From: Leisingera sp. SS27
GTDB taxonomy: Bacteria; Pseudomonadota; Alphaproteobacteria; Rhodobacterales; Rhodobacteraceae
Length of the DNA stretch: 64,000 nt
NCBI RefSeq assembly: GCF_028368855.1
Contig: NZ_JAQNCY010000004.1
Coordinates: 1 to 64,000 of the forward strand
Direction: 5' to 3'
Below are positions 2,453 through 15,623 of the stretch, one piece after another (within the stretch, counting starts at the first letter, position 1; each line of letters begins with the position of its first letter). A model generated the notes under the pieces. That model searched no databases. It was not told the origin of the DNA and saw only the letters and a program-made list of their open reading frames with translations. A program made the translations under genes and the position numbers.

Positions 2453-2854
2453 AGTCCGTTGGTTCCCTGCTGCGAGGTCGTGGTCTGCCGCTTTGCGCAT
2501 CCACTTCTGACGATGCAGGATGGAATGTTCCGGGTTCACTTCGCAAGAGGGATCGACCGCCAGGAGACCGGGGCGCTGACATCACCACTGCGGCGCTGCT
2601 GCATTTGGAGGCAGTCATCGATCCGCTACGGCTGTTGAATAAATGCAACCTTTCTACCCAAGCCAGCCCGCGGCTGGATCCGGCCGGACCAGAGCGCCGC
2701 AATAGCCGTTTTGCCGCGCACTCTGGTCCCGGTCCCGGCGTGCATCCCAACCGCGCGGGGCTGGGCGCTCCCGCAGCTGTGATCAAATAGATTTTGACTT
2801 TTTGGTCAAAAAATTTCCAACTTGGCCAAACCAGCCTCGACAGGAGCCAAATAC
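2453..2854. promoter_or_regulatory. Divergent promoter region, aldehyde dehydrogenase / aminotransferase
   Basis: This 400-bp stretch separates two divergent genes and holds no convincing gene. Its right end (2785-2835) is AT-rich and has the operator-like repeats listed separately. The left part is GC-rich with no clear promoter hexamers. Confidence 0.5.
2792..2830. promoter_or_regulatory. Operator-like repeats upstream of the class III aminotransferase
   Basis: A perfect inverted repeat TTTTGAC - six bases - GTCAAAA spans 2792-2811. In addition TTTGGTCAAA (2801-2810) and CTTGGCCAAA (2821-2830) are near-identical direct repeats 20 bp apart, about two helical turns. Both lie within 65 bp of the aminotransferase start. 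The core resembles the TTGACC-type operators of TetR- and GntR-family repressors, but no such regulator is adjacent. Confidence 0.5.
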
Positions 2855-4129
2855 ATGGAAAAGATCCTTACCCAGTCCGAGTGGATTGACCGCGCCAGGG
2901 CAGTGCTGCCCGCAGGCGGCTTCGGGAACTTCGATCCAGGCATTGTCATCCGCCAGGGCAAGGGCTCCCGTGTTTGGGATGAAGATGGCAAGGAGTACAT
3001 CGATTACTTGATTGGCTCCGGTCCGATGATGCTGGGCCACGGCCATCCTGAGGTGATAGAGGCAGTTCTGGAGCAACTGCCGAGGGGCATGACCTTCTTC
3101 GCCAGCAACGCACGCGGCATTGAACTGGCAGAGGAGATTTGCCGCGCAGTACCCTGTGCCGATCAGCTGCGATATGTCAGTACCGGCGGTGAAGCGGATA
3201 TGTATGCAATCCGGCTGGCGCGGGCGTTCACCGGGCGCACCAAGATCGTCAAGTTCGAGGGAGGCTACCATGGCATGTCGGCAGAAGCGCAGATGAGCCT
3301 GGCCCCTGTCAGGCGGGTGAATTTCCCGCAGGCCATTCCGGACAGCGCCGGCATCCCGCCGTCCGTTGCAGCAGAGGTTCTGGTCGCGCCTTTCAATGAC
3401 TTCGAATACATCAAGCAGCTGATGGCGGAGCACGGGCAAGAGATCGCGGCCATCATCGCCGAACCTTTGCAGCGTATCGTGCCGCCGCTGCCGGGCTTCC
3501 TACAGCTTTTGCGAGATGAAACCAAAGAGCACGGAAGCCTTTTGATCTTTGACGAAGTGGTCACCGGATTCCGCTCCACCTACGGCGGCGGTCAGGAACT
3601 GTACGGCGTGACGCCGGATCTGGCGACGCTGGGCAAGGTAATCGGCGGCGGCTTCCCGCTGGCCGCCATCGTGGGACGCGCCGAAATAATGCGGCATTTC
3701 GACAAGGCGGAAGTGGGCGCCGAAGGCTGGCTGATGCAGTTGGGCACGCTGTCAGGCAACCCGGTGGCCGCTGTTGCGGGCCTCAAGACCATGGAGATTC
3801 TGCGCCGCGAGGGTTCCTACGACCATCTGAACAGCACTGGCCAGCGGCTGATGCAGATGACAAGCGCAGCACTTGAAGAGGCCGGGGTGCCGTTTCAGAT
3901 CGTCGGCGAACCTGCGCTGTTCGAGGTCGTCTTCACTGGTGCCAAAGTGCGCGATTACCGGGACACCCAGGCCGGAAACGCTGAACGCACCAAGCGCTAT
4001 AACGAGGTGCTGCGCCAGGAGGGCATCTTCAAATCACCGGGCAAGACCTACCCCAGCCTGGCTCTGACAGAAGAGGATCTGGAACAGACCGAAGCAGCCA
4101 TCAGAAAGGCTGCCGCGGCTTTGGATTAA
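2855..4129 (+). CDS. Class III (glutamate-1-semialdehyde-type) aminotransferase
   Basis: A PLP-dependent class III aminotransferase of 424 residues. D233 (in IFDEVVTGFR) should contact the pyridine nitrogen, and K261 (in LGKVIGGGFP) should form the Schiff base. Overall it is closest in feel to glutamate-1-semialdehyde-mutase-like aminotransferases, but the window gives no haem-synthesis context, so it is more likely a catabolic or secondary transaminase. The ATG at 2855 follows CAGGAG at 2841-2846. An upstream in-frame TTG at 2822 lacks a binding site and was not used. It is divergent from the aldehyde dehydrogenase/CMD pair and convergent with a RidA gene. Confidence 0.88.
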   Translation: MEKILTQSEWIDRARAVLPAGGFGNFDPGIVIRQGKGSRVWDEDGKEYIDYLIGSGPMMLGHGHPEVIEAVLEQLPRGMTFFASNARGIELAEEICRAVPCADQLRYVSTGGEADMYAIRLARAFTGRTKIVKFEGGYHGMSAEAQMSLAPVRRVNFPQAIPDSAGIPPSVAAEVLVAPFNDFEYIKQLMAEHGQEIAAIIAEPLQRIVPPLPGFLQLLRDETKEHGSLLIFDEVVTGFRSTYGGGQELYGVTPDLATLGKVIGGGFPLAAIVGRAEIMRHFDKAEVGAEGWLMQLGTLSGNPVAAVAGLKTMEILRREGSYDHLNSTGQRLMQMTSAALEEAGVPFQIVGEPALFEVVFTGAKVRDYRDTQAGNAERTKRYNEVLRQEGIFKSPGKTYPSLALTEEDLEQTEAAIRKAAAALD

Positions 4130-4138
4130 CCCGTCAGC

Positions 4139-4167
4139 AAAAAAAGGCGGGCTGCCTGCCCGCCTTT
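4139..4167 (-). terminator. Bidirectional intrinsic terminator
   Basis: An 8-bp perfect stem (AGGCGGGC/GCCCGCCT) with a five-base loop lies between convergent genes. On the minus strand it is followed by seven Ts, a strong terminator for the RidA gene. On the plus strand only TTT follows. Confidence 0.85.
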
Positions 4168-4188
4168 CCCATACCAGCCAAGGCCAAC

Positions 4189-4539
4189 TTAGGCTCTGGC
4201 CGCGGTTACAATCAGTTCCACCAGGAAATCCTCCCGGGCCAGCTTCGCTTCGCCGCAGGCGCGTGCAGGGGCATGGCCCTCTGGCACCCAAGCATCCCAG
4301 ACCGCATTCATTTCAGCAAAGTGCTTCATGTCGGCAAGCCAGATCACGGTTTGCAGGATGCGGCTCTTGTCACTGCCCGCCTCTGCCAGCAGCGCGTCGA
4401 TCTTGTCCAGGCAATCCTGGGTCTGCTGCGCCACGCTGGCGCCTGCAGTTCCCACCTGCCCCGCGAGGTAGATGGTATCGCCATGGGTTACGATCTGGCT
4501 CATGCGCTGGGTGGTGTGGCTGCGGGTGATTTCAGACAT
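4189..4539 (-). CDS. RidA family enamine/imine deaminase
   Basis: The 116-residue product is a standard-length member of the RidA (YjgF/YER057c/UK114) family, trimeric cytoplasmic proteins that hydrolyse reactive enamines and imines made by PLP enzymes. The family's conserved arginine is seen in HAPARACGEAKLA and the acidic residue in FLVELIVTA. Its convergent neighbour is a PLP aminotransferase, which would suit a clean-up role, but the two genes are not in one operon. AAGGATAAAGAG precedes the ATG. Confidence 0.92.
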   Translation of the reverse strand: MSEITRSHTTQRMSQIVTHGDTIYLAGQVGTAGASVAQQTQDCLDKIDALLAEAGSDKSRILQTVIWLADMKHFAEMNAVWDAWVPEGHAPARACGEAKLAREDFLVELIVTAARA

Positions 4540-4584
4540 CTCTTTATCCTTGGAATAGCTGTTGCAGGGCTTACGCCGCCGTCT

Positions 4585-4929
4585 TCATTGGGACAGCTGC
4601 CATTTGCCTTCGGAGGGACAGAACTTGCGGCGGACTTGCTTGGCGGTCTGGTCATCCTTGACAAAGGCCTGATGCTGCAGAAGCACGCAATCGCCCTCCT
4701 TGCCCGCCACCTGCACGTTGCCGTGCGCGCCGCTGTCCGGGTTGGACCACTTTGCCCGCTTGCCGCCCTGCGCCTCGGCCAGCAGGGATTGCTCCGCCTG
4801 CCGCATAATATTGGTGTCCTGCGGCGTCAGCCCGGACTTGGCCAGAATACGGCTGAGAGGATTGGCAGCCGCGGGCGCGGCAACCAGTGCTGCCACGGCG
4901 GCAGCTGTCAGAATTCCGGAAAAACGCAT
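4585..4929 (-). CDS. Small exported protein, surface-antigen-like
   Basis: A 114-residue protein with a clear Sec signal peptide (MRFSGILTAAAVAALVAAPA, cleavage near AAA-NPL). The mature part contains WSNPDSGAHGNVQV, then two cysteines, then a C-terminal tryptophan. This order resembles the C-terminal domain of the 17-kDa / RT0821-Lpp0805 surface antigen family, without the lipobox and glycine-zipper part of those proteins. GGAG lies upstream of the ATG at 4929; a longer in-frame start at 4989 would bury the signal peptide and was rejected. The function is unknown. Confidence 0.75.
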   Translation of the reverse strand: MRFSGILTAAAVAALVAAPAAANPLSRILAKSGLTPQDTNIMRQAEQSLLAEAQGGKRAKWSNPDSGAHGNVQVAGKEGDCVLLQHQAFVKDDQTAKQVRRKFCPSEGKWQLSQ

Positions 4930-5042
4930 GTGAATACTCCTGCCTGAATGAAACCGGCCAACTTCCAGTAAGGCGCAACCGGCGGGCAATGTCCATGCGG
5001 CGGATCAGGCGAAGCTGACAGGGTCAGGGAAACCTGGTCGGA

Positions 5043-5942
5043 TCAGGAGAATTTGCGGAACAGCCGTGTCATATCAAACAGCTCATCCAGCCGGTCATAG
5101 CGGTCCTTGGTCTTGTCCCAGCTTTCTTCCTGAGTGGCGGCGATCATCGCCTCCAGCAGCATCATGGTGGAGATGTTGGAATCCCAGGCCGACGGAATTT
5201 CGACCCAGCAGTTAAAGGTGTGTTCGGCAACCGTGGCAATCGGGCTGGCCCATTGGTCAGTGATCAGCACGATTTTCACTCCGCGTTCCGAAGCCAGCTC
5301 CGCCAGTCTTTGCAGGTTAGTCTCATACCGGCGCACGTCAAACATCAGGAGCGTATCGCCCTCAACCATGTCCAGCACGTAGTGCGGCCAGGTCGCGGAT
5401 GAGGATGTCATATGGGTGACCCGCTGCCGGATCGCCTGGAAGTGGGTGAAGGCATAATCCGCCAGCGCCCGGGTGATGCGCCCGCCGACCACATAAAGCC
5501 GCCCTTCGGTGTTGGCGAGCTGATGCACGGCGGCGTCGAAATGGGCGGAGTCAATGTTGGAGAACGTCTGCTGAAGGTTGTCTGTCACAGCCTGTGCAAA
5601 TCTGTTCAGCAGGTGGCCTTCGGGCGCCTCTGAGGCCCAGTTGTCGCGCCGCTTGGTGGGACCCGAAACCTTGGCCTCCAGCTCCTTCAGCAGGGCCTGA
5701 TGAAACTGCGGATACCCTTTGAACCCCAGTTTCTGCACCATCCGGGCTACCGTCGGCGTGGACACTTCAGCATTCCCGGCAACGATGGTGATCGAGGCCA
5801 GTCCCGCCGCAGGATAGTTTTCCAGCAGCAGGTTCGCGAATTTCCGTTCGGATTGGGTGAGCGAGGAATAGCTCTCACGGATCAATTCGCGAACGGTGGC
5901 AGGAGGTTTCGACAAGGGCGCATTCCTGTTTTGAACAGACAC
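5043..5942 (-). CDS. RpiR family transcriptional regulator (HTH + SIS)
   Basis: A 299-residue regulator. Residues about 15-90 form the RpiR-type helix-turn-helix (ERKFANLLLENYP, then STPTVARMVQKLGFKGYPQF). About 130-270 is a sugar-isomerase (SIS) effector domain (VVGGRITRALADYAF). It is divergently transcribed from the amidohydrolase/TRAP/ligase operon, and a 34-bp palindrome lies in the short space between them. It is therefore the probable local regulator of that operon. RpiR proteins often sense phosphosugars, but members also control amine and amino acid catabolism, so the ligand is open. Confidence 0.92.
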   Translation of the reverse strand: MSVQNRNAPLSKPPATVRELIRESYSSLTQSERKFANLLLENYPAAGLASITIVAGNAEVSTPTVARMVQKLGFKGYPQFHQALLKELEAKVSGPTKRRDNWASEAPEGHLLNRFAQAVTDNLQQTFSNIDSAHFDAAVHQLANTEGRLYVVGGRITRALADYAFTHFQAIRQRVTHMTSSSATWPHYVLDMVEGDTLLMFDVRRYETNLQRLAELASERGVKIVLITDQWASPIATVAEHTFNCWVEIPSAWDSNISTMMLLEAMIAATQEESWDKTKDRYDRLDELFDMTRLFRKFS

Positions 5943-6000
5943 TTTCTAACCTGGAACCGGCCTGAAAAGAAAGTTTCAGGAAAACCTGTCCGGAACCGAT

Positions 6001-6034
6001 CATGAAAAGATATTGACACAAATATCTCTTCATG
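6001..6034. promoter_or_regulatory. 34-bp RpiR operator-like palindrome
   Basis: The arms CATGAAAAGATATT (6001-6014) and AATATCTCTTCATG (6021-6034) are reverse complements with a single mismatch, separated by six bases. The site lies in the 125-bp divergent region between the RpiR gene and its putative target operon, 34 bp before the chosen start codon at 6068. Its length, symmetry and place fit an operator for the adjacent dimeric regulator. TTGACA occurs at 6013-6018 within the site. Confidence 0.7.
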
Positions 6035-6067
6035 GAAACATTTTTCCAACTCACAGGGAGGCGGCGC

Positions 6068-6853
6068 ATGCACGAGAGTGATTCTCACACTCAGAAGGAC
6101 GCGGTGGAGGTGGTGAACCGTAACGGCACCAGCCCGGTCCTGCTTCTGTGCGAGCATGCCTCCAGCAACATCCCCGCCCGTTACGACGGGCTGGGCCTGC
6201 GCGAAGCCGACCGGCTGAGCCATGCCGCATGGGACCCGGGCGCGCGGGCCGTGGCCCTGCATATGTCCAAAGTGCTGGATGCCCCGCTGGTCGCCAGCAC
6301 CGTGTCGCGGCTGGTTTATGACTGCAATCGTCCGCCAGAGGCCGCCAGCGCCATGCCGGAGAAATCCGAACTGGTGGAAATTCCCGGCAACAAGGGACTG
6401 ACCGCGGAGCAGCGTCTGGAACGGGTGGAAACGGTCTATGATCCGTTCTGCGCAGCCGTTTCCGATTTGATAAAGGCCCGCAAAGAATCCGGGCGGCAGA
6501 CCGTGCTGGTCACAATGCACAGCTTCACACCGGTTTATTTCGGCAAGCAACGCGCGGTGGAGATCGGCATCCTGCATGACAACGACAGCAGGCTGGCGGA
6601 CGCGATGCTGGCAGAGGCCCCTGCCCTGCCGCACCGCCGGGTCGAGCGTAACGAACCCTATGGGCCGGCTGACGGCGTCACCCATTCATTGAAAATCCAC
6701 GGGCTGGCGCATGGGCTGGCCAACGTGATGATCGAGATCCGCAATGATCTGGTGGCAACACCAGAAAAAGAAGAGGCCATGGCAGAAGAAATGCTGACAT
6801 TGCTGCGCCCGGCCCTGGCCGCGCTGGCAGCGAAGGGAGGGCCAGATGCCTAG
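6068..6853 (+). CDS. N-formylglutamate amidohydrolase family protein
   Basis: A 261-residue member of the N-formylglutamate amidohydrolase (HutG2-type) family, zinc-dependent enzymes that cleave an amide bond on glutamate. Visible blocks are LLLCEHASSNIP near the N-terminus, HAAWDPGARAV, VTMHSFTPVY, ILHDNDSRLAD and NEPYGPADGVTHSL. The start at 6068 has AGGGAGG six bases upstream; an in-frame ATG at 6032 lacks a site and lies inside the palindrome. It is first in an operon with TRAP transport genes and a glutamine-synthetase-like ligase. No histidine-degradation genes are near, so I infer it may remove the glutamyl group from a gamma-glutamyl product rather than act in Hut. It overlaps the next gene by 8 bases. 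Confidence 0.85.
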   Translation: MHESDSHTQKDAVEVVNRNGTSPVLLLCEHASSNIPARYDGLGLREADRLSHAAWDPGARAVALHMSKVLDAPLVASTVSRLVYDCNRPPEAASAMPEKSELVEIPGNKGLTAEQRLERVETVYDPFCAAVSDLIKARKESGRQTVLVTMHSFTPVYFGKQRAVEIGILHDNDSRLADAMLAEAPALPHRRVERNEPYGPADGVTHSLKIHGLAHGLANVMIEIRNDLVATPEKEEAMAEEMLTLLRPALAALAAKGGPDA

Positions 6854-7442
6854 AATCATCCGGGCCTATGTCCGCGGCATCGACGCGATGAACCGCGCCA
6901 TTGGCCGCTTTGCCATGTATCTGATTTTCGCCCTCATCGGGGTGCTGCTGTGGTCCTCGGTGTCCAAGACGTTTTTCAACCCATCGCACTGGACGCTGGA
7001 GACCGCGCAGTTCGTGATGGTCGCCTATTACGTTCTGGGCGGCCCCTACTCCATGCAGCTCGGCTCAAATGTGCGAATGGATCTTTTTTATGGCGGCTGG
7101 TCGACCCGGACAAAGGCGATGGTCGATGCTTTCACCGTGCTTTTCCTGATCACTTATCTGGTGATCCTGATGTACGGCGCTCTCAGCTCAACCGCCTATT
7201 CACTGGGCTATTTCGGGCTGGAACCGCTGCAGTTCTTCTGGGACCTGCTGACGACGCTGGTGACCGAAGGTCCCACCGCTGCCGGCGAACAGCTCGGCTA
7301 TTTGGAGCGCAGCTCCACCGCCTGGCGGCCGTTCCTGTGGCCCGTCAAAACCATCCTTTGCTTCGGCGTATTCCTGATGCTGCTGCAATGCCTTGCCGAA
7401 CTGTTCCGGGATATCGGACGCCTGCGCGGAGTTGAAATCTGA
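6846..7442 (+). CDS. TRAP transporter small permease (DctQ-type)
   Basis: The 198-residue product has four predicted membrane segments (about residues 20-40, 60-80, 92-115, 158-180) and the DctQ family layout. It has an unusual insert between segments 3 and 4 (about 120-155), typical of the longer small subunits that partner 500-residue large permeases. It overlaps the upstream gene by 8 bases and the downstream large permease by one base (TGATG), so all are translated from one message. Confidence 0.88.
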   Translation: MPRIIRAYVRGIDAMNRAIGRFAMYLIFALIGVLLWSSVSKTFFNPSHWTLETAQFVMVAYYVLGGPYSMQLGSNVRMDLFYGGWSTRTKAMVDAFTVLFLITYLVILMYGALSSTAYSLGYFGLEPLQFFWDLLTTLVTEGPTAAGEQLGYLERSSTAWRPFLWPVKTILCFGVFLMLLQCLAELFRDIGRLRGVEI

Positions 7443-8944
7443 TGTCCTACGAATGGATCGCCATCGTGATGTTTGCCGGCATGATGCTCATGCTGATGAC
7501 CGGCCAGAGGGTATTTGGCGCCATCGGCTTTGTCGGCGCGGTTGCGGGCATGCTCCTGTGGGGCACCGGCGGGGTAGAGATCCCCTTCTCCGCCGCCATG
7601 AAGCTGATGAAGTGGTATCCCTTGCTGACACTGCCGATGTTCATCTTCATGGGCTACGTGCTGTCGGAGTCGAAAATCGCCGACGATCTCTACAGGATGT
7701 TCCACGTGTGGATGGGGCCGGTTAAGGGCGGTTTGGCCATCGGCACCATCGGCCTGATGGTTCTGATCTCAGCCATGAACGGCCTGTCAGTGGCCGGCAT
7801 GGCCATTGGCGCGACCATTGCGCTGCCGGAACTCTTACGCCGCGGCTATGACAAGATCCTGGTGACCGGCACCATCCAAGCGGGCTCCTCGCTGGGTATC
7901 CTGGTGCCGCCCTCGGTGGTGCTGGTGCTTTACGCAATGATTGCGCGCCAGCCGGTGGGGCAGCTGTGGCTGGCAGGGGTGATCCCGGGCCTGCTGATGG
8001 CAACCATGTTCATCATCTACATCTATGTCCGCGCCCGGATGCAGCCGAACCTCGGCCCCGCGATGCACCCGGAGGATCTGGCCGAGTATGAGCAGATTAC
8101 CGACCACCCGCTGCGCCTGAACTATATCGTTCTCGGTGCGCTGGTGCTGGTGCCGCTCTTGATACTAACCGGCGCGATGGAAACCAAATCCGCGCTTGGC
8201 GTGACACTGGCCCTTGGCTTTCTTTCTTTCCTCACCCGCAAGAACCCCATGTTCTACAAGGACGTGTTCATGAAGGAGAAGTACCGCCTGCTGTTCTCCG
8301 GCGTGCTGCCATTGGCGATCTTTGCCGCGATGATGGTGCCCTTCGTGAACGGCTGGACCTCGCTGGTGGAAAGCTCTGCCATCGGCGCCATGACCGCCTT
8401 CATCGCGGCGGTGCTGAAGGGGCGGATGACCAAAGAGGTGTTCGAAACGTCCGTGCGCTCAACGCTCGGCATCTCCTGCATGTTCATGTGGATCATCCTG
8501 GCGGCGCTGGCTTTTGGCGCGATCTTTGACGGTCTTGGTGCGGTCAAGGCGATTGAGGACCTGTTCACCACCAAACTGGGCCTTTCCCCTTGGATGATCC
8601 TGATCCTGATGCAGCTGAGCTTCATCGTGATGGGCACCTTCCTGGATGACACCGCGATGCTGGTGATCGTGGCACCGCTCTATGTGCCGCTGGTTGGGGC
8701 GCTTGGCTTTGATCTGATCTGGTACGGCGTGCTCTACACCATCACCACGCAGATCGCCTATATGACGCCGCCCTTCGGCTACAACCTGTTCCTGATGCGC
8801 GCAATGGCGCCGCCGGAGATCGGGCTGAAGGACATCTATGTCTCCATCATCCCCTTTGCCGCGGTGATGGTGCTGGCGCTCGCCCTGATCATGATGTTCC
8901 CGCAGATCGCCCTGTGGCTGCCGGAATATGTCTACGGAAAATAA
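7442..8944 (+). CDS. TRAP transporter large permease (DctM-type)
   Basis: The 500-residue multi-spanning protein of the DctM/TRAP large subunit family carries the substrate across the inner membrane using a sodium gradient. Family marks include the GVEIPFSAAMKLMKWYPLLTLPMFIFMG-region near the N-terminus, SGSS-like AGSSLGILVPPSVVLVLYAMI, and near the C-terminus DDTAMLVIVAPLYVPL and AYMTPPFGYNLFLMR. The longer-than-usual central part (about 190-300) is shared with the TakP/mannitol-chloroaromatic type of TRAP system. Substrate inference rests on the operon: an amine, amino alcohol or small acid. Confidence 0.92.
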   Translation: MSYEWIAIVMFAGMMLMLMTGQRVFGAIGFVGAVAGMLLWGTGGVEIPFSAAMKLMKWYPLLTLPMFIFMGYVLSESKIADDLYRMFHVWMGPVKGGLAIGTIGLMVLISAMNGLSVAGMAIGATIALPELLRRGYDKILVTGTIQAGSSLGILVPPSVVLVLYAMIARQPVGQLWLAGVIPGLLMATMFIIYIYVRARMQPNLGPAMHPEDLAEYEQITDHPLRLNYIVLGALVLVPLLILTGAMETKSALGVTLALGFLSFLTRKNPMFYKDVFMKEKYRLLFSGVLPLAIFAAMMVPFVNGWTSLVESSAIGAMTAFIAAVLKGRMTKEVFETSVRSTLGISCMFMWIILAALAFGAIFDGLGAVKAIEDLFTTKLGLSPWMILILMQLSFIVMGTFLDDTAMLVIVAPLYVPLVGALGFDLIWYGVLYTITTQIAYMTPPFGYNLFLMRAMAPPEIGLKDIYVSIIPFAAVMVLALALIMMFPQIALWLPEYVYGK

Positions 8945-8995
8945 CCAAGGAGAGTCCCGGCAAGGGGCCGGATGTTTCAACAAGGAGTGAGAATT

Positions 8996-10030
8996 ATGAC
9001 AACAAGACGTAAGTTTCTTCAGTCCGCCGGTGTTGGCGCCATGGCGGCGCCGCTGGCCACCCCGGCACTGGCCCAGTCCACTATCAAGTGGCGGATGCAG
9101 ACCTATGCAGGTGCCGCGCTGGCCGAGCATGTGGTAAAACCCGCCATCGACATGTTCAACAAGATCGCCGGCGACCGGATGCAGATAGAGCTTTACTACG
9201 CCGATCAGCTGGTTCCCACGGGCGAGCTGTTCCGCGCCATGCAGCGCGGAACCATCGATGCAGTGCAGTCGGATGATGACTCGATGGCTTCGCCCACCGA
9301 AGTAACCGTCTTTGGCGGCTATTTCCCCTTTGCTTCGCGCTACTCGCTGGACGTGCCGGTGCTGTTCAACCAGTACGGCCTGAACGAGATCTGGGACGCC
9401 GAATACTCCAAGGTCGGCGTCAAGCACATCTCGGCCGGCGCCTGGGACCCCTGCCACTTTGCCACCAAGGATCCGATCAATTCGCTGGCAGACCTGAAGG
9501 GCAAGCGCGTCTTCACTTTCCCGACCGCTGGCCGCTTCCTGGCGCAGTTCGGCGTGGTCCCGGTCACCCTGCCCTGGGAAGACATCGAGGTCGCGGTGCA
9601 GACCGGCGAGCTGGACGGCATCGCCTGGTCCGGCATCACCGAAGACTACACCGTCGGCTGGGCCGATGTGACCGACTACTTCCTGACCAACAACATCTCC
9701 GGTGCCTGGGCAGGGTCGTTCTTTGCCAACCAGGGCCGCTGGAACGAACTGCCGGAAGACCTGCAGACCCTGTTCCGCGTCTGCTGCGACCAGTCGCATT
9801 ATTACCGCCAGTGGTGGTACTGGGGCGGCGAAGCGTCCCTGCGCGTGAATGGCGACAAGATGAAGCTGACCACCATTCCCGACAATGAATGGCAGCAGGT
9901 CGAAGACGCAGCCGTGAAGTTCTGGGATGAAATCGCAGCCGAGTCCGAGACCAAGGCGAAGGTTGTGGAGATCTTCAAGAAGTATAACGCTGACATGCAG
10001 AAAGCCGGCCGGCCCTACCGCTACGGCTGA
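8996..10030 (+). CDS. TRAP transporter solute-binding protein (TakP/DctP-like), Tat-exported
   Basis: The 344-residue periplasmic binding protein has a twin-arginine leader (TRRKFLQSAG, cleavage near ALA-QS). It belongs to the DctP-like branch close to TakP, to judge by the length and blocks such as YYADQLVPTGELFRAMQRG and GELDGIAWSG. The start at 8996 follows AAGGAG; an earlier in-frame start at 8972 has no site and would bury the Tat motif. The protein is rich in Trp, Tyr and Phe in the C-terminal half (YYRQWWYWGG), which could line an aromatic cage for a cationic ligand. That last point is inference. Confidence 0.9.
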   Translation: MTTRRKFLQSAGVGAMAAPLATPALAQSTIKWRMQTYAGAALAEHVVKPAIDMFNKIAGDRMQIELYYADQLVPTGELFRAMQRGTIDAVQSDDDSMASPTEVTVFGGYFPFASRYSLDVPVLFNQYGLNEIWDAEYSKVGVKHISAGAWDPCHFATKDPINSLADLKGKRVFTFPTAGRFLAQFGVVPVTLPWEDIEVAVQTGELDGIAWSGITEDYTVGWADVTDYFLTNNISGAWAGSFFANQGRWNELPEDLQTLFRVCCDQSHYYRQWWYWGGEASLRVNGDKMKLTTIPDNEWQQVEDAAVKFWDEIAAESETKAKVVEIFKKYNADMQKAGRPYRYG

Positions 10031-10146
10031 GGCTTGCGCTGAAACACCGGGTTTGGCCTGCTCTGCTGCGGGCCAAACTCCTTACCCAAGGAATTTGCCA
10101 AAGCTTTTGAAGAAAAGTTTTGCGCGCAACAGACAAAGGGCCGCTC

Positions 10147-11499
10147 ATGCTCTCCTTCGACACTCTTAAGGACCAGGTTGCCGATGGCGCCGTTGACACC
10201 GTTCTGGTCTGCCTTGTGGACATGCAGGGCCGCCTGATGGGGAAGCGTTTCCACGCCAAGCATTTTGTGAATGGCGCCTGGGAGGAAACCCATTGCTGCA
10301 ACTATCTGCTGGCGACTGACCTCGCGATGGCGACACCTGACGGCTATGCCTCAACCAGCTGGGAACGGGGCTACGGCGACTATGTGATGAAGCCCGATCT
10401 TTCCACCCTGCGGCCGGTGCCGTGGCTGGAAGGCACCGTGATGGTGCTGTGCGATGTGCTGGATCACCACACCCACGAGGAAATTTCCCACTCCCCCCGC
10501 GCGATCCTGAAGAAACAGGTGAACCGTCTGAAGGCGATGGGGTACGACGCGATGTGCGCCACCGAGCTGGAGTTCTTCTTGTTTGCCAAAAGCTTTGACG
10601 AGATCCGCCGCTCGGGCTTCCGCGACTTGGAGCCGATCTCCGGTTACAACGAGGATTACAACATCCTGCAGACCACCCGCGAGGAGCATGTGATGCGCCC
10701 AATCCGCAACCACCTGTGGGATGCGGGCCTGCCGATCGAGAACTCCAAGGGTGAGGCGGAGACCGGCCAGGAGGAGCTGAACATCAAATACGCGGCGGCG
10801 ATGGACACGGCGGAGTTCCACACCATTGCCAAGCACGCGATCAAGGAGATTGCCGAGCAACAGGGCCACGCGGTGACCTTCCTGCCGAAGTGGAGCCACG
10901 ACAAGGTCGGCTCCTCCTCCCATGTGCATCAGTCGCTGTGGCAGGACGGCAAGCCCGCGTTCTATGACGAAACAGACGAACTGGGCATGTCGCCGCTGAT
11001 GAAGAATTACATGGCCGGTCTCTTGAAATACGCGCCCGACTACACCGCCTTCATGGCACCCTATATCAACAGCTACAAGCGCTTCATGAAGGGCACCTTC
11101 GCACCCACGCGGATCATCTGGTCGGTGGATAACCGCACCGCGGGCTACCGGCTGTGCGGTGACGGCACCAAGGCAATCCGCGTCGAATGCCGCATTCCGG
11201 GCTCCGACATGAACCCCTATCTGGCGATGGCAGGCATGCTGGCCGCCGGCATTGCGGGCATCGAGGAAGGGCTGGAGCTGCAGGCGCCTACCCGGGGGGA
11301 CGTCTACCAGGGCGACACCGGCATGATCCCGGGCACCCTGCGCGATGCGGCAGCCGCGCTGAATGGCTCGGTGATGCTCCGCAAGGCCCTTGGCGATGAT
11401 GTAGTGGATCACTACGTGCGCGCGGCGGAAGTGGAGATCGAGGATTTCGACCGGGTGGTGACCGACTACGAGATCGCTCGCGGGTTTGAGCGGGCGTAA
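10147..11499 (+). CDS. Glutamine-synthetase-like gamma-glutamyl ligase
   Basis: A 450-residue class I-type glutamine synthetase homologue with the ATP-grasp-like GS catalytic domain: the ELEFF metal ligands, GQEELNIKYA, the HDKVGSSSHVHQSLW phosphate/substrate loop, the KRFMKGTFAPTRIIWS loop and NRTAGYRL followed by RVECRIPGSDMNPYLA. It lacks the adenylylation-site region of housekeeping GlnA. Such proteins (PuuA, GlnA3/GlnA4, IpuC, GmaS relatives) join glutamate to an amine. The neighbours are an aldehyde dehydrogenase, an alcohol dehydrogenase, an amidohydrolase and a transporter. A gamma-glutamylated amino alcohol is the simplest reading. The ATG at 10147 was chosen over a TTG nine codons earlier. 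Confidence 0.88.
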   Translation: MLSFDTLKDQVADGAVDTVLVCLVDMQGRLMGKRFHAKHFVNGAWEETHCCNYLLATDLAMATPDGYASTSWERGYGDYVMKPDLSTLRPVPWLEGTVMVLCDVLDHHTHEEISHSPRAILKKQVNRLKAMGYDAMCATELEFFLFAKSFDEIRRSGFRDLEPISGYNEDYNILQTTREEHVMRPIRNHLWDAGLPIENSKGEAETGQEELNIKYAAAMDTAEFHTIAKHAIKEIAEQQGHAVTFLPKWSHDKVGSSSHVHQSLWQDGKPAFYDETDELGMSPLMKNYMAGLLKYAPDYTAFMAPYINSYKRFMKGTFAPTRIIWSVDNRTAGYRLCGDGTKAIRVECRIPGSDMNPYLAMAGMLAAGIAGIEEGLELQAPTRGDVYQGDTGMIPGTLRDAAAALNGSVMLRKALGDDVVDHYVRAAEVEIEDFDRVVTDYEIARGFERA

Positions 11500-11515
11500 T
11501 CCGGCTGCTGGCGGC

Positions 11516-11560
11516 TTGGGGCGCTGCCCCAAACCTCAGAGTATTTTCGGAAAGATGAAG
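11516..11560. repeat. Hairpin-containing intergenic repeat of a type common in roseobacters
   Basis: The space between the ligase and the aldehyde dehydrogenase holds a 7-bp stem (TTGGGGC/GCCCCAA, 11516-11532) followed by a tail containing GTATTTTCGGAAAGATGAAG. I recall closely similar hairpin-plus-GATGAAG elements scattered between genes in Rhodobacteraceae genomes. No T-run follows, so it is probably not a strong terminator and would let the operon read through. Confidence 0.55.
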
Positions 11561-11595
11561 AGGGCTTTGACCCTTTCTGAATGGAGTGAATGGCA

Positions 11596-12978
11596 ATGGG
11601 CCAGGTTTTGAAATGCATTTCACCGATCGACGGATCGGTCTTTGCGGAGCGCGAGGTGCTTTCGCGCGAGGACGCCTTTGCAGCGGCGGATCGGGCGCGG
11701 TCAGCGCAAGCAGCCTGGGCAGCCCGGCCGCTGCAGGAGCGCATTGATCTGGTGATGGCGGGCGTGGCTGCCGTCGGTGCGATGAACGACGATATCGTGC
11801 CGGAACTGGCGCATATGATGGGCCGGCCTGTGCGTTATGGCGGCGAATTCGGCGGCTTCAACGAGCGCGCAGGCCACATGGCGAAGATCGCCGCAGAGTC
11901 GCTGGCGGATATTGAGGTAGGCGAGGACGCAACCTTCAAGCGCTACATCAAGCGTATTCCGCATGGGGTGGTCTTTGTGGTGGCACCCTGGAACTACCCC
12001 TATATGACCGCGATCAACACCGTGGCGCCTGCGCTGATTGCCGGCAACACCGTGGTGCTGAAGCATGCGACCCAGACCCTGTTGGTTGGTGAGCGGATGG
12101 CGCAGGCTTTCCATTCCGCTGGCATTCCCGAAGACGTCTTCCAGAACGTATTCCTGGACCACGACACCACCTCGGAACTGATTGCCCGCAAGGCCTTCAA
12201 CTTCGTGAACTTCACCGGCTCGGTCGGCGGCGGCCAGGCGATGGAGCGCGCGGCGGCGGGCACCTTTACCGGCGTCGGCACCGAACTGGGCGGCAAGGAT
12301 CCGGGCTATGTGATGGAAAATGCCGACCTGGATGCGGCGGTAGACACACTGATTGACGGCGCCATGTTCAACTCCGGCCAATGCTGCTGCGGCATCGAGC
12401 GGATTTATGTGCATGAAAGCCTGTTTGATGCTTTCCTGGAGAAGGCCATTGACATCGTCAAAGGCTACAAACTGGGCAACCCGCTGGACCCGGAGACCAC
12501 CATCGGCCCGATGGCCAATGTGCGCTTTGCCAGCGAGGTGCGCGGCCAGATCGCCGAGGCCGTTGAGGCCGGCGCGGTGGCCCATATCGATACCTTCGCC
12601 GAGGATGACGGCGGCGCCTATCTGACACCGCAGATCCTGACCAACGTGACCCACGGCATGCGGGTTATGCGCGAAGAAAGCTTTGGGCCCGTCGTGGGCA
12701 TCATGAAGGTCTCCTCTGATGAGGAAGCCATCCGGCTGATGAACGACAGCGATTTCGGCCTGACCGCGTCGCTCTGGACCAAGGATGTGGAACGGGCACA
12801 AGCTGTCGGTGATCAAATCGAGACCGGCACCGTCTTCATGAACCGCGCCGATTACCTTGATCCGGGCCTGTGCTGGACCGGCTGCAAGGACACCGGGCGC
12901 GGCGGCGGCCTGTCGGTCATCGGGTATCACAATCTGACCCGTCCAAAATCCTATCACCTGAAGAAGGTCACTGGCTGA
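11596..12978 (+). CDS. Aldehyde dehydrogenase
   Basis: A 460-residue aldehyde dehydrogenase with PWNYPYM, the lysine in VVLKHA, GSVGGGQAM, the general base in TELGGKDPG and the nucleophile in NSGQCCCGIER, where three cysteines follow Gln. The end of the protein is slightly short compared with 480-500-residue members. It follows the ligase and precedes the iron alcohol dehydrogenase, so it probably oxidises the gamma-glutamyl aldehyde produced by the latter, as PuuC does for gamma-glutamyl-aminobutyraldehyde. GGAG lies nine bases before the ATG at 11596; the ATG at 11590 is too close to that site. Confidence 0.9.
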   Translation: MGQVLKCISPIDGSVFAEREVLSREDAFAAADRARSAQAAWAARPLQERIDLVMAGVAAVGAMNDDIVPELAHMMGRPVRYGGEFGGFNERAGHMAKIAAESLADIEVGEDATFKRYIKRIPHGVVFVVAPWNYPYMTAINTVAPALIAGNTVVLKHATQTLLVGERMAQAFHSAGIPEDVFQNVFLDHDTTSELIARKAFNFVNFTGSVGGGQAMERAAAGTFTGVGTELGGKDPGYVMENADLDAAVDTLIDGAMFNSGQCCCGIERIYVHESLFDAFLEKAIDIVKGYKLGNPLDPETTIGPMANVRFASEVRGQIAEAVEAGAVAHIDTFAEDDGGAYLTPQILTNVTHGMRVMREESFGPVVGIMKVSSDEEAIRLMNDSDFGLTASLWTKDVERAQAVGDQIETGTVFMNRADYLDPGLCWTGCKDTGRGGGLSVIGYHNLTRPKSYHLKKVTG

Positions 12979-13042
12979 CGGTCGGTCCCGCCCGTCCCGT
13001 TTCTCCTCCCGGGGCGGGCTACTTGCATCAAAGGAATACAAC

Positions 13043-14188
13043 ATGTCTCTCGTTGGAAACTGGTCATACCCGACCGCAATCAAGTTCGGCGCCGGCCGGA
13101 TCAAGGAACTGGCTGACGCCTGCGCTGCTGCTGGCATCACCAAGCCGCTGCTGGTCACCGACAAGGGGCTTGCGGATCTGCCGGTCACTCAAAGCACCCT
13201 CGATATCATGGAGGCTGCGGGCCTCGGCCGCGGTATTTTTTCGGACGTCGATCCAAACCCGAATGAGAAAAACCTGGACGCAGGCGTCGCCGCCTATAAG
13301 GCGGGCGGCCATGACGGTGTGATCGCCTTTGGCGGCGGCTCCGGCCTGGATCTGGGAAAGATGGTGGCCTTCATGGCCGGCCAGACCCGCCCGGTCTGGG
13401 ATTTTGAGGATATCGGCGACTGGTGGACCCGCGCAGATGCCGATGCTATCGCACCGATCATCGCAGTTCCGACCACCGCCGGCACGGGTTCCGAAGTGGG
13501 CCGCGCCAGCGTGATCACCGACAGCGTCACCCACCAGAAGAAAATCATCTTCCACCCCAAGGTGCTGCCGGCAGTGGTGATCTGCGATCCCGAGCTGACG
13601 GTGGGCATGCCCAAGTTCATCACCGCAGGCACCGGGCTGGATGCCTTTGCCCATTGTGTCGAGGCGTTCTCCTCGCCCCATTTCCATCCGATGTCCCAAG
13701 GCATTGCCCTGGAGGGAATGCGGCTGGTCAAGGACTACCTGCCGCGCGCCTATGCCGATGGCACCGATATCGAGGCCCGCGCCCAGATGATGAGCGCCGC
13801 CGCGATGGGCGCCACGGCGTTCCAGAAAGGCCTGGGTGCGATCCACGCGATGAGCCACCCCATCGGTGCACATTTCAATACCCACCACGGCACCACCAAT
13901 GCGGTTTGCATGCCAGCCGTACTGGAGTTCAATGCCCCTGCGATTGCGGACCGCTTCAAAATGGCCGCAGCTTATCTGGGCATTGACGGCGGTTTCGACG
14001 GCTTCCGCAGCTATGTGCAGGAGCTGAATGACAGCCTCAGTATTCCGCGCGGTCTGTCAGACCTGGGCGTCACCGACGCAGCGATCCCCGACCTGGTCAA
14101 GGGCGCCATCATCGACCCCTCCTGCGGCGGCAATCCCGTTGAGCTGACCGAGGAAAACCTCACCCAGCTGTTTAAGGCTGCGATGTAA
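13043..14188 (+). CDS. Iron-containing alcohol dehydrogenase
   Basis: A 381-residue group III (FucO/AdhB-like) alcohol dehydrogenase using NAD(P). The nucleotide-binding GGGSGLD is at residues 98-103. Predicted iron ligands D200, H204 (DAFAHCVEAF), H268 and H282 (AIHAMSHPIGAHFNTHHG) are all present. It is the last gene of the operon and is followed by a strong terminator. In this context it would oxidise a primary alcohol to an aldehyde for the preceding dehydrogenase. An AAAGGA site precedes the ATG. Confidence 0.92.
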   Translation: MSLVGNWSYPTAIKFGAGRIKELADACAAAGITKPLLVTDKGLADLPVTQSTLDIMEAAGLGRGIFSDVDPNPNEKNLDAGVAAYKAGGHDGVIAFGGGSGLDLGKMVAFMAGQTRPVWDFEDIGDWWTRADADAIAPIIAVPTTAGTGSEVGRASVITDSVTHQKKIIFHPKVLPAVVICDPELTVGMPKFITAGTGLDAFAHCVEAFSSPHFHPMSQGIALEGMRLVKDYLPRAYADGTDIEARAQMMSAAAMGATAFQKGLGAIHAMSHPIGAHFNTHHGTTNAVCMPAVLEFNAPAIADRFKMAAAYLGIDGGFDGFRSYVQELNDSLSIPRGLSDLGVTDAAIPDLVKGAIIDPSCGGNPVELTEENLTQLFKAAM

Positions 14189-14211
14189 TCAGCGGTAGTA
14201 TCCCAAGCTAC

Positions 14212-14248
14212 AGCGCTCTCCGCCCTGCGGGGTGCGCTTTTCTTTTTT
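14212..14248 (+). terminator. Intrinsic terminator after the alcohol dehydrogenase
   Basis: A 12-bp stem with one mismatch (14212-14223 with 14227-14238) and a CCT loop is followed by TTTCTTTTTT. It begins 24 bases after the stop codon and should end the seven-gene operon. Confidence 0.85.
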
Positions 14249-14256
14249 CGGCGACA

Positions 14257-14472
14257 TCAGCCGCTGACGTAGACCTCGTCCTTGGGGTAGTAAAAAATCT
14301 TCTGATTATGCAGTTGCCCCAGCAGTGCGTGGACCCGGCGCAGGGTTTCTGCATCAGCGCTGCCCGCCTCTGGATGTGTTTCCGACAAGGCATCCCTTGT
14401 GTGGCGCAAAGAGGTTTCGATCAGGTCCATATCCTCAACCGAAAGCTCGAACATGTCGTTGTACTTGGGCAT
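14257..14472 (-). CDS. Small hypothetical protein (71 aa)
   Basis: A 71-residue acidic, helical protein without signal or membrane segment (MPKYNDMFELSVEDMDLIE at the start, YYPKDEVYVSG at the end). AAAGGAG lies five bases before the ATG at 14472, and codon use matches its neighbours, so it looks real. I do not recognise a named family. It is convergent with the alcohol dehydrogenase and downstream of the LacI gene on the same strand. Confidence 0.7.
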   Translation of the reverse strand: MPKYNDMFELSVEDMDLIETSLRHTRDALSETHPEAGSADAETLRRVHALLGQLHNQKIFYYPKDEVYVSG

Positions 14473-14618
14473 CTGCACTCCTTTACCGGGCCAACCCGCG
14501 CAGAACTGGAACCATACTGGCAGGTTGCCCCGGAGATTCCGCCAAAGCTAGGAAAATCCACTTCCGGCGCGGCAAGAACGTTTACCTCTCCGCTGCGGCA
14601 GAAAGCTGCAGCGCCGGG

Positions 14619-15623
14619 CTAAAGCGTTTCCCCAAGGCTTATCGCCGGTGTCAGACGGTCAAAAACCAGCTCCTCCGCCTTGCCGGTTTCCCGTGACTTC
14701 AGGATGATCCGTGCCGCACGCTCTCCGATTTCATGGCGGCAGGCGTCCGTGGTCGCCAGTTGCAGCGGCAAGCCCTGCAGGATTTGCAGGTTGTTGAAGC
14801 CCGCCAATGCGATATCGCCGGGCACCGACAGTCCCGCGGCCAGGCAATGCATCAGCCCGCCCACGCTCATCACGTCGCTTGAATAGTAAATGCAATCCAG
14901 GTGAGGGTTGCGCGCCAGCATCTGTGACGTCAGCTGCCGACCTGTCTGGATCGAACTTTCTCCAGAATAGTGCTCCATATCGGAAAGTGTCACGTTCTGT
15001 GCCGCCAGCCCGTCCGTGAATCCTTCGAAGCGCTTCCGCGCCCGAAAATCCTGCGGCATCTTGGTGCCGATGAAGCCAATGCTCCTGTAGCCCCGTGCCA
15101 GGATCTGCTCCGCCATGCCGCCGCCGGCCTGCAGATGCGAGATGCCGACACAATGGCGTACCGGGTCACCGTCCACATCCATCACTTCAACCACCGGGCA
15201 ATCAGCCTGCTGCAGCATCCGCCGGGTAGCTTCCGTATGCTCAAGCCCGGCAACGATCAGCCCCGAGGGCCGCCAGCTGAGCATTTCGCGGATGACGCTT
15301 TCCTCTTCCTCCAGATCATAGCCCGACACCCCGACCACCGGCTTCAAGGGGCTTTCTTTCAGGACGGCGGAAATCCCGGAGAGAACCTCCGGGAAGACAA
15401 AGCTGTTGAGCGACGGCACAACCACTGCCACCAGATTGACCGACTGCGAGGAAAGGGAACCGGCAATCCGGTTTGGCACATAGCCGTGGGTCCTGGCGAT
15501 TTCCTCAATCTTTGCTTTGGTCTTGGCAGAAACATCCGGTGCCCCGCGCAAGGCACGGGACGCGGTCATTTCACTGACACCGGCCAGTTTGGCCACGTCT
15601 TTCAGAAGCAGTTTCTTGGTCAT
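14619..15623 (-). CDS. LacI/GntR-type transcriptional regulator
   Basis: A 334-residue LacI-family repressor. The helix-turn-helix at about residues 7-30 (KDVAKLAGVSEMTASRALRG) is followed by the hinge with SAKTKAKIEEIARTHGYVPN and a periplasmic-binding-like effector domain (VAVVVPSLNSFVFPEV to the C-terminus). It looks most like gluconate-type GntR members. It is divergent from a GAPDH gene with two operator-like sites between, so it probably controls that gene and itself in response to a sugar acid or phosphosugar. Confidence 0.92.
   Translation of the reverse strand: MTKKLLLKDVAKLAGVSEMTASRALRGAPDVSAKTKAKIEEIARTHGYVPNRIAGSLSSQSVNLVAVVVPSLNSFVFPEVLSGISAVLKESPLKPVVGVSGYDLEEEESVIREMLSWRPSGLIVAGLEHTEATRRMLQQADCPVVEVMDVDGDPVRHCVGISHLQAGGGMAEQILARGYRSIGFIGTKMPQDFRARKRFEGFTDGLAAQNVTLSDMEHYSGESSIQTGRQLTSQMLARNPHLDCIYYSSDVMSVGGLMHCLAAGLSVPGDIALAGFNNLQILQGLPLQLATTDACRHEIGERAARIILKSRETGKAEELVFDRLTPAISLGETL

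Follow-up and report, generated by a model that had tools for sequence, protein, structure and literature searches.

A probable Eto operon for ethanolamine uptake and gamma-glutamyl breakdown in Leisingera sp. SS27

Ethanolamine derived from phospholipid headgroups is a widespread marine nutrient, and its breakdown ties together the use of phosphorus, nitrogen and carbon (Westermann et al., 2023; PMC10132767). The closest described system is that of Phaeobacter sp. MED193, for which the Fig. 5 legend of the same paper lists, as MED193_10021-10056, the genes for RpiR, GGAH, EtoV, EtoW, EtoX, ETAGA, GAADDH and GETADH. All eight genes are found, in this order, at positions 5043-14188 of the window, by which we mean the whole 64,000-nucleotide stretch of Leisingera sp. 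SS27 analysed here (contig NZ_JAQNCY010000004.1, forward strand, positions 1 to 64,000); compared by this gene list alone, the two loci show no difference in gene content. It is very likely (probability about 0.93) that the locus is the known Eto operon for ethanolamine uptake and breakdown of marine Roseobacter bacteria.

The Puu pathway of Escherichia coli glutamylates its substrate, oxidizes it and then removes the glutamyl group; PuuA is 28% identical to the ligase of the window, and the last enzyme, PuuD, comes from another family than the N-formylglutamate amidohydrolase (FGase)-type hydrolase found here. In the distant genus Chromohalobacter, an ethanolamine cluster of C. salexigens around the binding protein Csal_0678 was reportedly described by Vetting et al. 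in 2015; this binding protein is 85% identical to EtoX of the window. The set of families tabulated for C. salexigens (PF00120, PF00465, PF00171 and PF05013; Table 2 of PMC9397018) equals the enzyme set of the window. For Streptomyces coelicolor, the same sequence of steps has been proposed for the GlnA4 pathway, including a last step by an FGase-family enzyme (PMC6529630); compared by description, its cluster differs, since the Fig. 2 legend names a short-chain dehydrogenase, a glutamine amidotransferase and a putative ethanolamine transporter gene, and no TRAP genes.

Gene content and predicted pathway

The eight genes, as obtained by open reading frame calling and a Pfam scan, are as follows.

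5043-5942, minus strand: RpiR-family regulator, divergent from the operon, counterpart of MED193_10021 (HTH_6, 60 bits; SIS, 74 bits)
6068-6853, plus strand: FGase-type hydrolase, predicted gamma-glutamylglycine amidohydrolase, GGAH (PF05013, 143 bits)
6846-7442, plus strand: EtoV, small TRAP permease (DctQ, 53 bits)
7442-8944, plus strand: EtoW, large TRAP permease (DctM, 210 bits)
8972-10030, plus strand: EtoX, predicted TRAP ethanolamine-binding protein (DctP, 75 bits)
10147-11499, plus strand: glutamine synthetase (GS)-like ligase, predicted ethanolamine gamma-glutamylase, ETAGA (Gln-synt_C, 325 bits)
11590-12978, plus strand: aldehyde dehydrogenase, predicted gamma-glutamylacetaldehydeamide dehydrogenase, GAADDH (Aldedh, 381 bits)
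13043-14188, plus strand: iron-containing alcohol dehydrogenase, predicted gamma-glutamylethanolamide dehydrogenase, GETADH (Fe-ADH, 163 and 146 bits)

The genome (G000) comprises 4.8 Mb in 30 contigs, with an estimated completeness of 100%, and is Leisingera-like, with an operon ligase that shares 98% identity with its counterpart in Leisingera strains. The RpiR gene faces the seven plus-strand genes, which run from the hydrolase through the three transporter genes, the ligase and the aldehyde dehydrogenase to the alcohol dehydrogenase and are followed by a terminator. All named families score above their Pfam cut-offs in the eight locus proteins, which bears out the families assigned in an earlier note on this DNA; that note had counted the RpiR gene as part of a tightly packed operon, and the gene is indeed present, but it lies divergently on the minus strand, outside the operon transcript. 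The first three plus-strand genes do overlap, and only 27 bp separate the third from etoX; the later gaps measure 116 bp after etoX, 90 bp after the ligase gene and 64 bp after the aldehyde dehydrogenase gene (with the ligase start at 10147), so that tight packing does not extend over the whole operon. For the hydrolase, the most probable start is the ATG at 6068, behind AGGGAGG, and not 6032.

In the predicted pathway, EtoXVW would import ethanolamine, and the GS-like ligase would use ATP to join it to the gamma-carboxyl group of glutamate, yielding gamma-glutamylethanolamide; the iron-containing alcohol dehydrogenase would then oxidize the alcohol to the aldehyde, the aldehyde dehydrogenase would convert the glutamylated aldehyde to gamma-glutamylglycine, and the FGase-type hydrolase would release glycine and glutamate. 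By this order of glutamylated intermediates, glutamate would be recycled and the free aldehyde of ethanolamine avoided. We infer the activity of each operon enzyme in this strain; gene content, orthology and residues come from the present analysis, whereas ethanolamine binding and raised protein levels were reported by others for relatives. The course proposed in the earlier note (uptake of an amino alcohol, gamma-glutamylation, oxidation from alcohol to aldehyde to acid, and deglutamylation by a formylglutamate-type hydrolase) is supported by gene order, orthology and the published Phaeobacter operon. Its view that the amino alcohol was unknown and the hydrolase role undescribed did not hold: ethanolamine has been published as the substrate (PMC10132767), a PF05013 gamma-glutamylglycine amidohydrolase is already in print (PMC9397018), and such a step was proposed for Streptomyces (PMC6529630). 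Since pathway, substrate and hydrolase role are all described in these three sources, whatever weight the individual enzyme assays carry, the locus is a further copy of a known system, and the claimed novelty is unsupported.

Binding protein, enzymes and substrate

In a search of PDB sequences, the best solved relative of EtoX was the protein of entries 4uab and 4xf5, identical to each other in sequence (648 bits; the next-best relative reached 67 bits); identity to 4uab is 85% over 318 amino acids. PDB 4UAB is given as Csal_0678 of C. salexigens with bound ethanolamine, whose amine and hydroxyl groups are held by Glu220 (PMC12410723). Judging from the alignment, Glu224 of the window EtoX (chain position 217; a numbering offset of 3 is assumed) probably corresponds to this residue; it is kept in all 65 aligned rows, which comprise 63 of 64 relatives (all except L017) and the window sequence twice. 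Csal_0678 is described as lacking the arginine that ties TRAP proteins to carboxylates (PMC4646407); the position that aligns to this arginine is Phe181 in the window, and phenylalanine in 56 and tyrosine in 9 of the 65 rows. The absence of the carboxylate-binding arginine and the high identity to an ethanolamine binder argue against a protein restricted to dicarboxylates, a finding that the earlier note had regarded as adverse to its pathway.

For the Phaeobacter EtoX, ethanolamine binding is given with a Kd of 7.9 +/- 1.9 uM (PMC10132767). Table 2 of the same paper gives higher levels on phosphorylethanolamine for GGAH, EtoX, ETAGA, GAADDH and GETADH, five of the seven proteins of the operon; the two permeases are not among them. 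Several points weigh against this identification. EtoX was also raised in the no-phosphorus control (PMC10132767), and phosphorylethanolamine is thus not the only condition that raises it. In that account, the basis for the hydrolase and dehydrogenase steps in Phaeobacter is annotation and protein levels; for C. salexigens the pathway is called "predicted in silico" in PMC6529630, but for C. salexigens and Agrobacterium "demonstrated" in PMC10132767. Finally, small amino alcohols besides ethanolamine may bind proteins of the EtoX type.

This last point leads to the strongest rival, in which the same chemistry would act in the cell on an amino alcohol homologous to ethanolamine, such as 2-amino-1-propanol or 3-amino-1-propanol. 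The ligand of 4xf5, which shares the 4uab sequence, is presumably (S)-2-amino-1-propanol. EtoX relatives (E<=1e-60) occur in 108 of the 198 genomes of the family, the window genome counted, and some are divergent (60-68% identity). At nine loci of the 65 aligned rows (L019, L038, L061, L063, L070, L071, L072, L074 and L077), the operons are otherwise alike and EtoX is only 64-66% identical to that of the window, with several aromatic positions changed; the ligand may therefore vary within the family. The window EtoX, however, is of the near type, and the binding constant and the five raised proteins of Phaeobacter speak for ethanolamine (PMC10132767), which makes an aminopropanol substrate here very unlikely. 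Breakdown of ethanolamine by the Eut route (EutBC ammonia-lyase) was rejected, as the window genome has no match to PF06751 (EutB); a control search over 14 genomes was positive in one, E. coli.

The GS-like ligase is 73% identical to PDB 5dm3, which we take to come from C. salexigens, 57% identical to 11zs, and 28% identical to E. coli GlnA as well as to PuuA. In a tree of 15 sequences, the ligase, 5dm3 and 11zs form a clade with 100/100 support, apart from GlnA and PuuA; because this tree has long branches among paralogues, interpretation is limited to the tight clade of these three. The glutamate of the GYEAP motif of GlnA, the catalytic E327, is replaced by phenylalanine in all three (GTFAP), and the NLYDL motif, which carries the adenylylated tyrosine of GlnA, is absent from the aligned window ligase. 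The ligase is thus placed outside housekeeping GlnA; the opposite outcome, a grouping with GlnA, is what the earlier note had named as evidence against its reading. The GmaS-type model gln_synth_III of NCBIfam (type III GS) gave 232 bits against a cut-off of 470, and the methylamine ligase 9qur scored 145 bits vs. 784 bits for 5dm3. With NCBIfam scores below cut-offs, the low 9qur score and the clade separate from GlnA and PuuA, GlnA, PuuA and GmaS were all rejected as readings of the ligase.

A Puu-like glutamylation operon for putrescine or another polyamine would have the glutamylation logic and the Gln-synt_C family in common with this locus, and the ligase does match the PuuA-type model GGputSyn at 195 bits; the cut-off of that model, however, is 650, the ligase falls into a clade separate from PuuA, the eight genes scanned by Pfam include no PuuD-like gene, putrescine needs no alcohol dehydrogenase, and the binding protein belongs with ethanolamine binders. 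A polyamine substrate is accordingly highly improbable.

The only solved relative of the hydrolase at E<=0.001 is PDB 2odf (264 bits), named Atu2144 and by that name from Agrobacterium. The NCBIfam hutG model gave 21 bits, far under its cut-off of 279, and an identity as HutG N-formylglutamate deformylase was rejected on this score. For C. salexigens, a PF05013 gamma-glutamylglycine/formylglutamate amidohydrolase is tabulated (PMC9397018). Among the two oxidoreductases, the best NCBIfam model for the iron-containing alcohol dehydrogenase reached 362 bits, below its cut-off of 500, and for the aldehyde dehydrogenase no model reached its cut-off among the best 25 of 45 matched. An ordinary glutamine synthetase beside histidine degradation (HutG) can be dismissed: GlnA is the best NCBIfam model of the ligase (254 bits) and the hydrolase has its weak HutG match, but the GlnA cut-off is 429 and both scores stay far below threshold, a separate GS of the same genome, 27% identical to the operon ligase, forms the pair with E. 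coli GlnA, two of its four PF05013 genes score much higher (250 and 234 bits) than the operon hydrolase, and the ligase has neither the GYEAP glutamate nor the NLYDL motif.

Conservation among relatives and sister operons

Relatives were taken as the best 80 of 526 loci, so that close relatives are over-represented. The order RpiR-FGase-TRAP(3)-GS-aldehyde dehydrogenase is held in 64 of the 80, and the gene arrangement is therefore not due to chance. The exact window order is found in 51 of these 64; eleven carry one extra gene, Na/Pi-cotransporter-PhoU-like, between etoX and the ligase gene, and two (L034 and L071), which end at about the expected start of the iron-containing alcohol dehydrogenase gene, are without a detected copy of it. 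Six of the 80 loci show the ligase, aldehyde dehydrogenase and alcohol dehydrogenase genes only; in five of these the ligase lies at most 5 kb from the locus start.

The other ten (L006, L026, L028, L031, L033, L052, L055, L056, L069 and L076) are sister operons with no TRAP or RpiR match, in which a phosphatase gene of the inositol monophosphatase family stands ahead of a gene for a second type of FGase hydrolase. In four of them (L026, L028, L033 and L055) a Na/Pi-cotransporter-PhoU gene is inserted between the two, and in L052 the aldehyde dehydrogenase was not detected. These names come from Pfam for chosen genes (inositol monophosphatase in L028 and L006; Na_Pi_cotrans and PhoU in L028 and L042) and from tblastn likeness for the rest. 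The region upstream of the phosphatase gene was scanned in eight of the ten: by Pfam, a DeoR regulator lies directly upstream in four (L026, L033, L056 and L069), and a sulfatase/phosphodiesterase-family gene lies near the phosphatase gene in three (L026, L052 and L056). ABC transporter genes are also found in L069, and other genes precede the phosphatase gene in L006, L028 and L076; L006 also carries OpuAC/ABC, choline-kinase, dimethylglycine-dehydrogenase-like and AraC genes. One assembly of Leisingera daeponensis holds both forms on two contigs, the TRAP form as L005 and the phosphatase form as L006.

It is possible, though doubtful, that a fixed enzyme core is served by exchangeable uptake modules: the sister operons would take up intact phosphorylethanolamine or its glycerol ester and split off the phosphate intracellularly, supplying the core with ethanolamine, while in the window RpiR would read the pathway through a palindrome at the promoter. 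A further Pho-independent route for phosphorylated headgroups exists, as stated in PMC10132767, and the sister operons, with their putative uptake of such headgroups, are a candidate for it. As leads beyond the known system, the sister operons are modest and the regulator site is weak.

Regulator site, terminator and flanking sequence

The features outside the coding regions are the following.

6001-6034, no strand: inverted repeat around TTGACA, 13 of 14 pairs
6033-6048, no strand: candidate RpiR operator TGGAAACATTTTTCCA, 7 of 8 pairs, beginning 14 bases after TTGACA and over the expected -10 element
10049-10080, plus strand: 13-bp hairpin directly 3' of etoX, in the 116-bp gap (-24.4 kcal/mol, z -4.9; 0 of 200 shuffles as stable)
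14212-14250, plus strand: intrinsic terminator, hairpin 14212-14238 with a T-rich tail (-18.8 kcal/mol, z -3.3; 2 of 200 shuffles as stable)

The RpiR family has a sugar-phosphate-binding fold. Most likely, the divergent RpiR protein would bind a palindrome that overlaps the promoter and keep the operon repressed, with ethanolamine or one of the glutamylated intermediates as the signal that lifts repression; site, sign and signal are those that we infer. The hexamer TTGACA is present in all 65 intergenic regions between the RpiR and hydrolase genes (64 loci and the window), and its copy in the window, at 6013-6018, is -35-like. Two candidate operators lie around or near it. The 14-nt inverted repeat at 6001-6034 was set aside because just 8 of 64 relatives, all of them Leisingera, share its 13/14 form; the palindrome at 6033-6048 is preferred because it is fixed in place in more rows. 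Among the 31 rows with a near RpiR (group A), the best palindrome begins 14 bases past TTGACA in 28, and among the 34 rows with a distant RpiR (group B) it begins 13 bases past it in 27. The mean number of paired bases is 6.39 downstream vs. 5.32 upstream of TTGACA in group A, and 6.44 vs. 6.07 in group B, where the upstream value comes from the 15 of 34 rows with enough sequence.

Other results speak against the site. No consensus promoter turned up ahead of the operon in a simple scan of 4000-15500. Of the 65 rows, only 26 have a palindrome at or under the 5% level of shuffles (12 of 31 in group A, 14 of 34 in group B), and the window is not one of them, as 0.065 of mononucleotide shuffles are as good as its palindrome. 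When up to two mismatches are allowed, the genome contains a single match to the window form; this means little because a reversed control pattern also matches at one place. With 26 of 65 rows at the 5% level, related rows and an upstream control in group B that is nearly as good, the evidence for an operator is suggestive only.

The strong terminator that had been proposed at the operon end is confirmed by its folding energy; the same simple scan gave no excess of terminators over shuffles in 4000-15500 (10 vs. 10.1). The hairpin behind etoX is a possible stabilizer of the mRNA 3' end or an attenuator, and would perhaps set the mRNA level of the binding protein.

Two genes flank the operon: a class-III aminotransferase gene (2822-4129, plus strand), which scores near yet below the glutamate-1-semialdehyde aminomutase cut-offs, and a RidA-like gene (4189-4539, minus strand), named by eye. 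The RidA-like gene is found in the same position in 13 of 80 relatives and the aminotransferase gene, at an identity of at least 85%, in 7 of 80; a functional tie to the operon was considered and dropped.

The window has no Rfam match. The gap between the ligase and aldehyde dehydrogenase genes contains, at 11539-11560 on the plus strand, a copy of a dispersed 22-bp motif, GAGTATTTnnGGAAAGATGAAg, on which a literature search found no publication. An exact match lies between the same two genes in 6 of 80 relatives (L001, L003, L004, L005, L011 and L072). The window genome holds the motif at 40 places with at most two mismatches, against 0 for the reversed control, and 21 of the copies were lined up. 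By eye, the motif often follows a GC-rich hairpin or occurs as two copies that face each other.

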